Shown: piece after piece, positions 6,204 through 45,126 of the stretch | Layout: every line of letters begins with the position of its first letter | How positions within the stretch are numbered: the first letter of the stretch is position 1 | Assembly (NCBI RefSeq): GCF_000469135.2 | Contig: NZ_CP048117.1 | Span: forward strand, 2,021,501-2,085,500 | Direction of reading: 5' to 3' | Length of the DNA stretch: 64,000 nt | DNA from: Bacillus sp. SB49 | GTDB taxonomy: Bacteria > Bacillota > Bacilli > Bacillales > Halobacillaceae | Translations under genes and position numbers: made by a program | Notes under the pieces: generated by a model | What the model was told of the DNA's origin: nothing | Seen by the model: the letters and a program-made list of their open reading frames with translations, nothing else | Databases searched by the model: none

Positions 6204-7505
6204 TTACTTGATGATGTTATGAATCAGCTTTGGTTTAGAAACTTTTTCTTGTGCGATTGTGTACGCTTCCTTCACTTTATCAATGGAGTCTTGAGGAGTT
6301 TCAACATCACTCAACAGAACAACCAGGGCCTCTCCAGCTTTTACTGGATCACCAATTTTTTTCTTCAATGTAATTCCTACTCCATGATTAATCTCGTCAT
6401 CTTTGGTCGCACGCCCCGCACCAAGGTACATGGCAGCAATACCGATTGACTCTGCATCAATGGCAGCGATATATCCCGCTTCCTCCGCCTCGACCGCGAC
6501 TTCGTATTTTGCTTTGGGGAGCAGATCAAGATTATCAATCATAGAAACGTCTCCCCCCTGTGATTCTACAAGGGTACGAAGGGATTGGAATGCCTTCCCG
6601 TTCTCAATATTTTGCTCTAAGGCAGCATAGGCATCCTCATAGGAGGCAAATACTTCTGCAAGAACCGCCATATGGGAAGCGATTTCCAAGGAAAGCTCCC
6701 GTAAATCTTCTACTCTTTTACCTTGGAGGATTTCTGCAGCTTCTTTAATTTCATTGGCATTACCCACTTCAAATCCAAGCGGTTGGTTCATATCGCTAAT
6801 TACTGCGACTGTTTGTCTGCCAAGATTATTGCCGATATCCACCATCTCACGCGCGAGCGCCTCAGAATCTTCCAATGTTTTCATGAATGCTCCGGAACCG
6901 GTTTTCACATCGAGCACAATACTATCCGCACCGGATGCGATTTTCTTACTCATAATAGACCCTGCAATAAGGGGAAGGGAGTTCACGGTACCTGTCACAT
7001 CACGAAGAGCATAAAGCTTTTTATCGGCAGGAGCAAGGTTTCCAGTTTGCCCCGCTACTGCTAATTTATGTTTGTTTACGTTTTCAATAAAGCGTTCTTT
7101 TGTCATCTCGATTTCGAGACCCTCTATAGATTCGAGTTTATCCAGCGTACCACCGGTATGACCCAGTCCGCGTCCCGACATTTTCGCAACCGGTATCCCT
7201 ACGGAAGCTACGAGCGGTCCAACAATGAATGTAACCTTGTCCCCTACACCACCGGTGGAATGCTTGTCCACTTTCTTGCCATCTATGGCGGAAAGATCGA
7301 TCGTTTCTCCTGAATTTACCATAGCCTGTGTCAATGTTGCTGTTTCCTCCGGCGTCATCCCCTGGAAATAAATAGCCATCGTTAGTGCAGAAGCTTGATA
7401 ATCCGGTATCTCGCCTTTTGTATAACCATCAACGAAAAATTCAATTTCTTCTTTCGTCAATTCTCCACCATCGCGTTTCTTAACGATCACATCATACATA
7501 CGCAT
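6204..7505 (-). CDS. pdp: Pyrimidine-nucleoside phosphorylase
   Basis: A 433-residue member of the thymidine/pyrimidine-nucleoside phosphorylase family. The KHSTGGVGDK phosphate-binding motif, the MSGRGLGHTGGTLDKLE signature and the C-terminal PYNP lipoyl-like domain (GVGITLKKKIGDPV) are present. It splits uridine, thymidine or deoxyuridine with phosphate to give base and (deoxy)ribose-1-phosphate. AAGGGTGG precedes the ATG at 7505. It is the last gene of the salvage operon; DeoB downstream in the pathway turns the pentose-1-phosphate into the 5-phosphate. Confidence 0.97.
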   Translation of the reverse strand: MRMYDVIVKKRDGGELTKEEIEFFVDGYTKGEIPDYQASALTMAIYFQGMTPEETATLTQAMVNSGETIDLSAIDGKKVDKHSTGGVGDKVTFIVGPLVASVGIPVAKMSGRGLGHTGGTLDKLESIEGLEIEMTKERFIENVNKHKLAVAGQTGNLAPADKKLYALRDVTGTVNSLPLIAGSIMSKKIASGADSIVLDVKTGSGAFMKTLEDSEALAREMVDIGNNLGRQTVAVISDMNQPLGFEVGNANEIKEAAEILQGKRVEDLRELSLEIASHMAVLAEVFASYEDAYAALEQNIENGKAFQSLRTLVESQGGDVSMIDNLDLLPKAKYEVAVEAEEAGYIAAIDAESIGIAAMYLGAGRATKDDEINHGVGITLKKKIGDPVKAGEALVVLLSDVETPQDSIDKVKEAYTIAQEKVSKPKLIHNIIK

Positions 7506-7545
7506 CTCGCATCCACCCTTTACTTTTTAGGAATTAGAATTATCA

Positions 7546-7576
7546 GCGGTGCTCTCAACACAGGCAGGAGCACCGC
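7546..7576. repeat. Intergenic hairpin between punA and pdp
   Basis: GCGGTGCTC (7546-7554) and GAGCACCGC (7568-7576) are a perfect 9-bp inverted repeat with a 13-base loop in the 87-base gap between punA and pdp. No T run follows on either strand, so it is not a standard terminator. It may be an mRNA processing or stability element that lowers or uncouples pdp expression. Confidence 0.75.
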
Positions 7577-7592
7577 AAATGTTTAAATGCTC

Positions 7593-8414
7593 TTAAGCCG
7601 GAAGACCACGAAGAAGATCTTTAACAAAACCGAGGAAGTCTTCCCTTACCTGTGCTGTCGTATCGATCACTTCGTCATGGGTCAGGGGCTGGTCAAGAAT
7701 GCCCGCTGCCATATTAGAAATACAGGAAATGCCTAGTACACGCATCCCGGAATGGTTCGCTACCATTACCTCCGGCACCGTTGACATACCGACAGCATCT
7801 CCACCAAGTGTACGGAGCATGCGGACTTCTGCACCGGTTTCATAGGCAGGTCCGGTATTTCCGACGTAAACTCCCTGCTGAACCTTAAGATTAAGGCGCT
7901 CTGCCGATTGGTGTGCGTGTTGGATCAAGTCACGGTCATAAGCTTCCGACATATCCGGGAAGCGGGGCCCAAGATCCTCATCGTTCGGCCCGATCAGCGG
8001 ACTATTTCCCATATTATTGATATGGTCCGTAATAATCATCAAGTTGCCAGGCTGGAACGTTTCGTTAATTCCACCAGCCGCATTCGTGACGAACAGCGTC
8101 TCAACGCCAAGCTCCTTCATAACTCTGACAGGGAAGGTCACCTGCTGCATGCTGTAGCCTTCGTAATAATGGAAACGGCCCTGCATAGCGATTACCTGCC
8201 TGCCCTCAAGCTCTCCAATCACGAGTTGTCCTTTATGTCCGGACACCGTCGATTCTGGAAAATGTGGAATTTCCTTATAAGCGATTGTGACGGGGTTTTG
8301 AATTTCGTCAGCCAGAACACCCAAGCCCGATCCAAGAATAAGTCCAACGGTCGGTTGATGAGTTAACTGCTCCCGTATAAATGATGATGCTTCCTTGATT
8401 TTCGTTTGAACCAT
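7593..8414 (-). CDS. punA: Purine-nucleoside phosphorylase (trimeric type)
   Basis: A 273-residue PNP of the trimeric (mammalian-like) class. Visible motifs are the phosphate loop LILGSGLG, the GRFHYYEGY segment, VTNAAGGIN, the purine-site segment GVYVGNTGPAYET and EVMVANHSGM. It converts guanosine and inosine (and the deoxy forms) to base and pentose-1-phosphate. It lies 15 bases after deoB and upstream of pdp; in B. subtilis the orthologue is called pupG or punA. A signal-free cytoplasmic enzyme with the usual length. Confidence 0.97.
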   Translation of the reverse strand: MVQTKIKEASSFIREQLTHQPTVGLILGSGLGVLADEIQNPVTIAYKEIPHFPESTVSGHKGQLVIGELEGRQVIAMQGRFHYYEGYSMQQVTFPVRVMKELGVETLFVTNAAGGINETFQPGNLMIITDHINNMGNSPLIGPNDEDLGPRFPDMSEAYDRDLIQHAHQSAERLNLKVQQGVYVGNTGPAYETGAEVRMLRTLGGDAVGMSTVPEVMVANHSGMRVLGISCISNMAAGILDQPLTHDEVIDTTAQVREDFLGFVKDLLRGLPA

Positions 8415-33044: not shown

Positions 33045-33228
33045 GTGTCCTCCTCCTCTTATCCTTTTCCCACATTATACAACAATTCTGACTATGATCT
33101 AGAACATTTCCACCTTTTCTACCCATCTCCCCGCAACCTCAGGGAGCAATCGCAGCGATATTTTCGGCATGCTTTCCACTTTCTAAACAAACCGGCGCCG
33201 TATGTGTAAATACAGCAAAAAATAGTTC

Positions 33229-33256
33229 ACCGATCTGGGCATTCGCACATACGTTA
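33229..33256 (+). promoter_or_regulatory. Sigma-K-like promoter of the Cys-rich spore protein gene
   Basis: AC (33229-33230), 17 bases, then CATACGTTA (33248-33256) matches the mother-cell sigma-K pattern AC-N16/17-CATANNNTA. It lies 33 bases before the start codon at 33290. A late mother-cell promoter fits a spore-surface role. Confidence 0.7.
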
Positions 33257-33289
33257 TCAAAACAAGTGACTTTTGGAGGAGGGCGGGGT

Positions 33290-34207
33290 ATGAAAGAGAT
33301 GGAATCAACCTGCGTTCGTGTTAAAGAAGTATATGACTGGATGGAAACCCGTACATGTAAAGAATTGGTGCGCCGCGTACTCGTTCCTAATTCCACTTCC
33401 GAAGCAGAAGAGTGTATTTGTATTCCTTATTATGTAAGAAATGATTCAGAAGACCCTTCGCCCATTTATACAACCGTCGGTCTTAATGCTGTAGAAAGCT
33501 GTTATGCTGTAACCCATACATGCACCGGGAACTGTGAACTGACTATATTAGTCAATGGAAAGGAAGAGACTTCCCTCGCTTCCGGGGATACGCACCTGGC
33601 TGAAAAGGATCATCTAGAATCGATCACCATTCTTCCAGATCCTTATGGGCAAGGATGCAAGGGGACTTTGACCTTGGATATTTCTTACTCCGCCGGCTAC
33701 CCGGCTCGCGAGTTTCAACGGAGAGAGCTCCCCTGTTATTTAACCACCGCAGAAGGAACTATCCTAACGTCTGCTGGTCCAGATACGTTCTACTGGCAGA
33801 TTGAGAAAACATCCGAACAGCGCTCTTTCCCTTTGAGGGACGGAAGCCGGGTTCTGCTTAATAGAATTTCAGCAGCTTTCCGCACACACGTTACCGTAGA
33901 TATTTATGATCGTGCTGGTGACGTCGTTACCCCCTGTACCTTCCCCGTAGAAATAGAAGAGACGTACTATCTATGTGCACCGGATGGTTGCAAATTCGAG
34001 GGATATGTTACTGAATTTCTTCCCAACGCATACGTCATCCCTGCAGAAGAAAATGGATGCGTATGTCTGGATATCCATCTATCCTTATGTATCTCCCATC
34101 ACATGAAAGCCTTCGGTGACCGAACAGCAGCTATAAGGGGAGCACTATGTTCACCTAGAGAAGACATTCCTCTTCCATGTACTCCCCCACCTGTACCCAT
34201 CTGTTAA
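33290..34207 (+). CDS. Cys-rich probable spore coat/exosporium protein, unknown family
   Basis: A 305-residue protein with many cysteines (for example C8, C23, C42, C44) and two beta-rich halves (about 20-150 and 150-290). The N-terminal CVRVKEVYDWM motif resembles one I associate with Bacillus and Clostridium spore-surface proteins. The end is short, Pro-rich and Cys-terminated (PLPCTPPPVPIC). There is no signal peptide or membrane span, as expected of a protein assembled on the forespore from the mother cell. The ATG at 33290 follows GGAGGAGGGCGGGG. It is convergent with the collagen-like and Ena-type genes. I cannot name the family with confidence. Confidence 0.6.
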   Translation: MKEMESTCVRVKEVYDWMETRTCKELVRRVLVPNSTSEAEECICIPYYVRNDSEDPSPIYTTVGLNAVESCYAVTHTCTGNCELTILVNGKEETSLASGDTHLAEKDHLESITILPDPYGQGCKGTLTLDISYSAGYPAREFQRRELPCYLTTAEGTILTSAGPDTFYWQIEKTSEQRSFPLRDGSRVLLNRISAAFRTHVTVDIYDRAGDVVTPCTFPVEIEETYYLCAPDGCKFEGYVTEFLPNAYVIPAEENGCVCLDIHLSLCISHHMKAFGDRTAAIRGALCSPREDIPLPCTPPPVPIC

Positions 34208-34237
34208 TACGTGCGTATATTTCTATGCGTATTACAA

Positions 34238-34288
34238 GAAGCATTTGCCGGCTCCCCTAATTCTTAAAAGAAGCTGGCGAAATACTTC
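34238..34288. terminator. Long imperfect hairpin between convergent spore genes
   Basis: GAAGCATTTGCCGGCT (34238-34253) pairs with AAGCTGGCGAAATACTTC (34271-34288) with one mismatch, one bulge and a G-U pair. It lies in the 84-base gap between two convergent genes and probably ends both. T tracts are weak. Confidence 0.55.
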
Positions 34289-34291
34289 TCG

Positions 34292-34900
34292 TTATACTAA
34301 TTCGTCATCAATACGGATGATTGTAAGAGTAGCTCCTTGACCATCCTGCAAAGTTGCTGCACCCAGGAGGCCGAATAATTCAAGGCTAATCGTGTCTCCC
34401 ACATCCAGGGATACTATAATATCCGCATTAAAACTGCTGACACTTAACACAGGGTTGGTCTCAGAGGCTTCCAATGGAGTACCATTGACCGTAAGTCTTG
34501 CTCCCAATAGTAATGCAGCTGTTGTATTTACTTTGTAGGACAAATAATAACGCCCGGAAAGTGTGATAGTAAATACCGTGTCTGTAGGATCTACTGTGAT
34601 ATTTTTTACATTCTGTGAGTTCGGTAATGGAACGGTTGTTCCTCCAAGTACCACAGCAATTAGAGCTCCTTCTGTATTAGCCGCGAATCCAGATGTTTCC
34701 GTAACAACAGGACCTGCTGGACCAGCGGGTCCTACTTCTCCTTGCGGGCCTGCCTCCCCCTGTGGACCTGCCGGACCTGTTTCTCCCTGTGGACCTGCCG
34801 GACCTGCCTCTCCCTGTGGACCTGCCGGACCTGCCGGGCCTTCAGGTCCTCTTAAACCGCGGACACAATCTCCACTTCCATCATAAAAGTTTATAGCCAT
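34292..34900 (-). CDS. Collagen-like BclA-type spore fibre protein
   Basis: A 202-residue protein with three parts: a 14-residue N-terminus ([14 protein letters not shown], one Cys), a collagen-like stretch of 17 Gly-X-Y triplets at residues 15-65 rich in GPA, GPQ and GEA, and a 137-residue C-terminal beta domain of the BclA/C1q-like trimer type. Such proteins form hair-like fibres on the spore surface, and in B. cereus-group spores a BclA-like protein caps the endospore appendages. The ATG at 34900 (GGGAGA upstream) is chosen; the longer frame to 34969 overlaps the Ena gene without a site. It lies 55 bases after the Ena-type gene. Confidence 0.85.
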
Positions 34901-34955
34901 TACTCTGTTTCTCCCTTCCATAATAGTAAGAATTCCTGCCCATAGCCGGAATTTT

Positions 34956-35339
34956 TTACACTGCATCACAATTGACTTGATAACGCGGCGTCAAACAAAC
35001 TAACCCGGAGGAAATATCTCCTTCTTCGCTATCAGGTACAGTGACTTCAATGCGCGTAAAGTTCGTTGCGGTAAAGCTTACACTGCCCCCCGCATATACA
35101 ATTAAAGGCGTGCCTACCTGCGTTCCATCATTATAAAAAGTGACGCTGATAAACTCGGCAGCACCAGAGTCATACGCAACGAAACCGGAACTAAAAACGT
35201 TCACTCCACTTGTCACATATATATCTTGGTTGACTCCCTGCGGCATGCTCCATCCTACGCAGACTTTATCCTTAACAAAATCACAAGATACCGTAGTATC
35301 CGTATTGAAACAATCAAAACAATCGGAACAACTCGCCAT
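34956..35339 (-). CDS. Ena-type (DUF3992) endospore appendage subunit
   Basis: A 127-residue protein. The N-terminus is a Cys-rich arm (C4, C7, C10, C19), followed by KDKVCVGW (C27), a predicted beta-jellyroll core, and C115 and C124 near the end. This fits the Ena1A/Ena1B pilin family, in which the N-terminal connector reaches into neighbouring subunits and is held by disulphides. A good GGAGG site precedes the ATG. It is first in a two-gene unit with the collagen-like gene. I found no clear sigma-K promoter upstream. The family call rests on remembered motifs, not on a search. Confidence 0.75.
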
Positions 35340-44847: not shown

Positions 44848-44987
44848 ACCATCTCTCCTTTATGGAAATTTTATACTACTACATTCTACGACCGGACCCC
44901 TGCATACGTTTCAAGAAAAACAACCATTTACAAAAATTAAAATATTCGCTAAGATGAAGGCATCCAAGACAACTGCATAACATGGAA

Positions 44988-45076
44988 CTTGCACTGGGGG
45001 AGCTGCATTTGCGGCTGAGAGGTTTATCCGACCCTTAGCACCCGAACTAGATAATACTAGCGTGGGGAAGTGCAGC
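44988..45076 (+). promoter_or_regulatory. TPP (thi-box) riboswitch aptamer
   Basis: The conserved thi-box elements are present in order: GGGGGAGC, the CTGAGA core (45015-45020), ACCCTT, ACCCGAACTAGATAAT and TAGCGTGGGGAA. Stem P1 is formed by TGCACT (44990-44995) and AGTGCA (45069-45074). It controls the ykoFEDC operon. The 3' side of P1 can also pair with the terminator stem downstream, giving a transcription-attenuation switch. Confidence 0.95.
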
Positions 45077-45126
45077 CTGACTCTCGCGATCAGACTTCTT
45101 TTTTGGCTTTTCTTTTCGATTGTTGG

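Follow-up and report, generated by a model that had tools for sequence, protein, structure and literature searches.

S-type endospore appendages (S-ENA) are staggered helical fibres of about 10 nm on spores, and Ena fibres are biologically known from the Bacillus cereus group only. S-ENA are anchored by a ring of Ena1C, and L-ENA are tethered by ExsL, which combines CotZ with DUF3992 (PMC12921279). The tip of L-ENA is the product of a BclA-type gene equivalent to the tip candidate described below (PMC12921279), and for S-ENA the coat receptor of the anchor and the ruffle gene still await assignment (PMC12921279, PMC11952670). A statement of 2021 confines the ena1/2 clusters to the B. cereus group (PMC8619143). 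Such a restriction does not hold for the pilin family, as among the genomes analysed here Enas were found in 32 of the 151 from the order and in 14 of the 301 from the class. The preliminary description of the present DNA had singled out an Ena locus outside the B. cereus group; its presence stands, but homologues are fairly common and, being labelled by Pfam and NCBI, they are not new as sequences.

The locus belongs to a salt-loving soil bacterium of the genus Halobacillus, which is not known for pathogenic species, and lies in a window of 64 kb (the whole stretch of DNA that was analysed), where three genes occupy 2.1 kb (Table 1). With a probability of roughly three in four, these genes encode a complete endospore appendage consisting of fibre, tip, and anchor. 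The stop codon of an ena pilin gene is followed after 55 bases by the ATG of a bclA-like gene, and the third gene converges on this pair. When re-derived from the sequence, the coordinates, lengths, and spacing of the three reading frames agreed in every point with the preliminary description. The window also contains a TPP riboswitch (RF00059, positions 44986-45085) that is unrelated to the fibre genes.

Table 1. Features of the candidate appendage locus (window positions) and location of the second triad of the genome.
Feature	Position	Strand	Remarks
Sigma-K-type promoter of anchor gene	33228-33256	+	CACC-N16-CATACGTTA, 33 nt before start codon
Anchor candidate gene	33290-34207	+	305 aa, 18 Cys; BMQ_0737-type coat protein with inserted Ena domain; best start ATG 33290; convergent with ena-bclA pair
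N-terminal CVRVKEVYDW motif	33311-33340	+	Common to BMQ_0737-only coat proteins
Inserted Ena-like domain	33353-33712	+	About residues 22-141
C-terminal BMQ_0737-type spore-coat domain	33734-34195	+	About residues 149-302
Tip (ruffle) candidate gene, bclA-like	34292-34900	-	202-aa collagen-like BclA-type protein; ATG at 34900
BclA_C (C1q/TNF-like) head domain	34307-34687	-	Pfam
17 GXY triplets	34706-34858	-	Residues 15-65, counted in translation
Ena pilin gene	34956-35339	-	127 aa, 7 Cys, S-type-like, Cys-rich N-terminal connector; co-directional with bclA-like gene
Second triad	L044 (G000:C1:3566000-3580000), 6281-7943	convergent layout	1.5 Mb from first triad

The Cys-rich product of the first gene of the pair had been read as an Ena/DUF3992 pilin, and profile search, structure, and phylogeny all point to this family. 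Neither of the two results named in advance as refuting this reading, a missing DUF3992 match or a different predicted fold, was obtained. PF13157 (Enas/DUF3992) matches the protein with 64.6 bits (1e-17; Pfam gathering cut-off 22), and in phmmer searches its closest solved chains are Ena2A (9i0y, 1.7e-9) and Ena1B (7a02, 4.4e-7), while Ena3A (8pdz) gave no match. An AlphaFold2 model (pLDDT 82.6) retrieved solved Ena entries with Foldseek before any other fold, in the order Ena2A (TM 0.74/0.82, rmsd 1.8 Å), Ena1B, Ena3A, and Ena1C. In a tree of 110 Ena domains, the pilin falls into a 22-row clade with 7a02 (Ena1B) and 9i0y (Ena2A; SH-aLRT 95), where its neighbours are pilins of Halobacillus sp. 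A5 and Virgibacillus chiguensis. In the core, its cysteines C27 and C115 correspond to C24 and C109 in Ena1B. The connector carries C4, C7, C10, and C19, and no adjacent pair of cysteines corresponding to the CC doublet of S-ENA pilins is found in it. Because this doublet is missing despite the common clade with Ena1B and Ena2A, the predicted protein is an S-type-like Ena pilin, and strict S-ENA membership is ruled out. Scans of genome contigs and of plasmids with this single pilin as query gave no matches.

The collagen-like partner was confirmed exactly as described, with 17 GXY triplets and a BclA-type C-terminal domain (PF18573 BclA_C, 170 bits, 1.8e-50; collagen, 3.1e-10), and solved BclA (1wck) matches it with 5e-8. 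At a collagen rise of 2.8 Å per residue (PMC11952670), the stalk would measure about 14 nm. The only two BclA_C genes of the genome each lie directly behind one of its two ena pilin genes, which argues against a chance adjacency. The possibility that the collagen gene is a random neighbour was rejected; the other collagen gene that was found in the genome stands beside a gene for a phage-type cell-wall lytic enzyme, far from ena. Across the 151 genomes of the order, the best five BclA_C matches are all adjacent to Ena genes, and within the clade of the window pilin a collagen-like gene accompanies ena at five of five loci (17, 24, 27, 145, and 223 triplets). The BclA-like protein might instead be a nap protein of the exosporium or coat, with only pilin and anchor forming a fibre or ring. 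Naps are formed by BclA of B. anthracis and B. megaterium (PMC4674009), and 17 triplets are short for a visible ruffle. However, no exosporium-leader family was detected in the protein at E <= 1 (NCBIfam), its gene closely follows ena both in this genome and in those of other genera, and the equivalent gene of L-ENA encodes the tip (PMC12921279). Moreover, in L-type loci the N-termini of tips (MCAQ[IL]..C) resemble those of pilins (MAQ[LI]G.C), a likeness not clearly imitated by the N-terminus of the window protein. A nap function is therefore improbable, and a tip function remains the preferred reading. At two loci, L088 (6655-9780) and L090 (6430-10382), the very long collagen-like genes of 145 and 223 triplets are flanked by two S-type-like ena genes; their products are good candidates for long ruffles.

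The protein encoded opposite this pair has the length and the richness in cysteine reported before, and it also contains an Ena domain, a feature beyond the preliminary description. Proteins with BMQ_0737 only start with a CI..VYDW motif followed by a short spacer; an HMM built from them covers residues 2-21 and 142-303 of the anchor candidate, in which the spacer of about 34 residues is exchanged for about 120 residues. The family model itself (NF052457) scores 67.5 bits (1.7e-18), slightly below its curated cut-off of 71. An HMM derived from pilins alone, with the window protein and all anchors left out, reached 22.9 bits on the anchor candidate compared with 6.9 for the best of 200 shuffles, and an HMM of the Ena domains of other anchors reached 73.6 bits compared with 4.0 for shuffled sequence. 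The domain is diverged and forms a long branch in the tree; the N-terminal half searched alone had no Pfam match at E 10, and PF13157 exceeds its cut-off in homologous anchors. The eight best structure matches of the anchor model (pLDDT 74.9, pTM 0.47) include the PDB entries of Ena3A, Ena2A, Ena1B, and Ena1C. A plain Cys-rich coat protein was thus rejected because the Ena domain is found by HMM, and the predicted 305-residue product is a BMQ_0737-type coat protein with an Ena domain in place of the spacer. Such a fusion makes it a plausible fibre anchor and strengthens the earlier assignment of fibre, tip, and anchor, still the best reading, in the very part that concerns the anchor. Other architectures were also encountered. 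In genome G089 a BMQ_0737-type domain is fused to RCC1-like repeats (641 aa, L028), and an 844-residue protein of the Halobacillus genome described here (L110:3028-5562, minus strand) carries one as well. Might the BMQ_0737-type domain be a general coat-docking module? A 301-residue protein at L106 (6085-6990) consists of three tandem Ena domains.

The sigma-K-like promoter noted earlier in front of the anchor gene was also recovered, with a near-perfect sequence. The pattern CACC-N16-CATACGTTA occurs just three times in the 64 kb when both strands are counted, and a full sigma-K-type match precedes 7 of 10 anchor genes checked, against a background of 0.5-2% per 200 nt. Upstream of the ena-bclA pair, no sigma-K-type match was found.

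A second, paralogous triad, likewise absent from the preliminary description, has the same convergent layout and comprises an Ena3A-like pilin (134 bits and 1.4e-38 to Ena3A 8pdz), a BclA_C protein that lacks a collagen stalk, and an Ena/BMQ anchor. The genome contains three Enas matches over the cut-off, namely two pilins and one fusion anchor, and the same profile search revealed no stand-alone Ena1C gene. Its two CotZ proteins are plain (frames of 173-180 aa) and encoded at loci without an Enas match.

Similar modules recur in other genera. All eight full-length matches to the window anchor in other genomes adjoin an ena pilin gene, and Enas and NF052457 are both over cut-off in single proteins of Virgibacillus, Peribacillus, Amphibacillus, and a Priestia megaterium plasmid. 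In Halobacillus sp. A5 and V. chiguensis, the two ena-bclA pairs are joined in a single cluster that has one anchor, and further triads are present in Peribacillus loiseleuriae, strain FJAT-29882, Amphibacillus marinus, and Priestia koreensis. An 8.9-kb mobilizable MOBQ plasmid of P. megaterium (NZ_CP071483.1, L216) carries a triad as cargo, consisting of genes for a BclA_C protein, an Ena/BMQ anchor, and an Ena3A-like pilin; NCBI labels both pilin and anchor 'S-Ena type endospore appendage'. At other Ena3A-type loci (in Bacillus nakamurai, in genomes G085 and G121, and on plasmid pNY3A), a CotZ-Ena protein (NF040827) with the architecture of ExsL is found instead of BMQ-Ena. The record of pNY3A (CP079755.1, L217) is filed as Klebsiella grimontii and contains Spo0E, CotZ-Ena, collagen tip, and Ena3A-like genes of Bacillus; it is probably mislabelled or contaminated.

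These comparisons bear on the possibility that the 305-residue protein is only a structural component of the coat or exosporium, whose Ena domain has no docking role and whose ena neighbours are co-regulated passengers. BMQ_0737 alone is a structural protein required for the outermost layers, according to work cited in PMC4656864, and the Ena domain of the anchor is diverged. Yet different genera have retained the insertion, in every case next to an ena pilin, and CotZ-Ena occupies the same place at other loci. The lineage of the anchor also tracks the type of pilin on the tree, with 4 label changes compared with a shuffled mean of 9.7, a difference that is inflated by the kinship of the genomes. 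In a tree of the anchors only, the window anchor forms a long branch without a settled position, and a single clade of S-type anchors would be compatible with the data (AU p 0.55). On balance, a purely structural role is unlikely, and the protein is better regarded as an anchor.

In H. karajensis DSM 14948 (L136, 8699-9425), an apparently broken Ena/BMQ anchor, divided between two frames of 142 and 77 aa, lies next to intact ena and bclA_C genes. This broken homologue, the patchy occurrence of the locus within the genus, and the related modules on plasmids would also fit a decaying or silent remnant transferred from another spore former. However, all three frames in the window are intact and have good ribosome-binding sites, the promoter is kept, and the G+C content matches the surroundings; orthologues of the pilin at 46-53% identity retain frame and gene order. 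A remnant is thus very improbable, and the locus is more plausibly a working appendage cassette.

For such an appendage the following model is proposed. Subunits of the jelly-roll pilin would polymerise on the spore while it develops and form a thin fibre, probably stabilised by disulfide bonds. The anchor would be made late, in the mother cell, if its promoter indeed responds to sigma-K. Its BMQ_0737-type domain and N-terminal YDW motif may fix it within the outermost layer of the spore, and the inserted Ena domain could offer a pilin-like docking face at which the fibre starts. With this polarity, the BclA-like protein would cap the distal end as a short ruffle made of the collagen stalk and a C1q-like head. 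Precedents for such a mechanism are ExsL and Ena1C (PMC12921279) and F-Anchor (PMC11952670). When ena1C is lost in B. paranthracis, unattached fibres appear in the medium.

Each of the three components belongs to a known kind of protein: pilins of the Ena family, tips of the BclA type, and anchors with an Ena domain. What is new, as far as predicted proteins and gene order go, is an anchor that fuses Ena to BMQ_0737, and the pairing of an S-type-like pilin with a tip gene of its own. The accessible ENA literature yielded no mention of this anchor design or of an operon-linked tip for an S-type-like pilin, an earlier mention being possible. We lean, if only slightly, towards a broader view, in which fusions of Ena with BMQ_0737 are widespread and constitute a third class of Ena anchors, in addition to Ena1C rings and ExsL, and can take the place of ExsL at loci that are otherwise equivalent. 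Together with the adjacent tip gene they would form self-contained fibre cassettes that spread from genus to genus, in part by way of plasmids, and the window would contain the first case of an S-type-like pilin whose tip is encoded in its operon. This tip gene bears on the ruffle of S-ENA, and the anchor, being integrated into a protein of the outer coat, reveals its coat partner through its domain composition. The replacement of CotZ-Ena by BMQ-Ena at equivalent loci points to a modular principle, whereby any outer-layer protein that acquires an Ena domain can seed a fibre.

Among the described systems, F-ENA (DUF4183 pili, F-BclA, and F-Anchor) share with the locus the combination of a fibre, a collagen tip, and an anchor with a pilin-like domain, and F-BclA also lacks an exosporium leader (PMC11952670). 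However, their pilin family is unrelated, and F-ENA identity was rejected because DUF4183 (PF13799) has no match in the genome. The pilin is nearest to Ena2A and Ena1B of S-ENA (Ena1A/B/C, Ena2A-C) by sequence, fold, and tree. Unlike S-ENA, the locus has one pilin gene rather than two and no Ena1C gene, and its operon includes a tip gene, while no ruffle gene is clearly assigned to S-ENA (PMC11952670); true S-ENA membership was rejected for want of the CC doublet and of an A/B/C gene set with Ena1C. The anchor agrees with the BMQ_0737 family (NF052457; P. megaterium) in the CI..VYDW motif and the C-terminal domain, and differs from it in the Ena domain that replaces the spacer. True membership in L-ENA, as found in B. 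paranthracis (exsL, l-bclA, ena3A), was rejected as well: the window pilin is S-type-like and not of the Ena3A type, in contrast to that of the second triad, the anchor is BMQ_0737 with an inserted Ena domain and not ExsL with its N-terminal CotZ domain and DUF3992, and its gene is convergent. Nevertheless, the locus and L-ENA have in common an Ena pilin, a BclA-type collagen tip encoded in the same operon, and an anchor in which an Ena domain is fused to a spore-coat domain.
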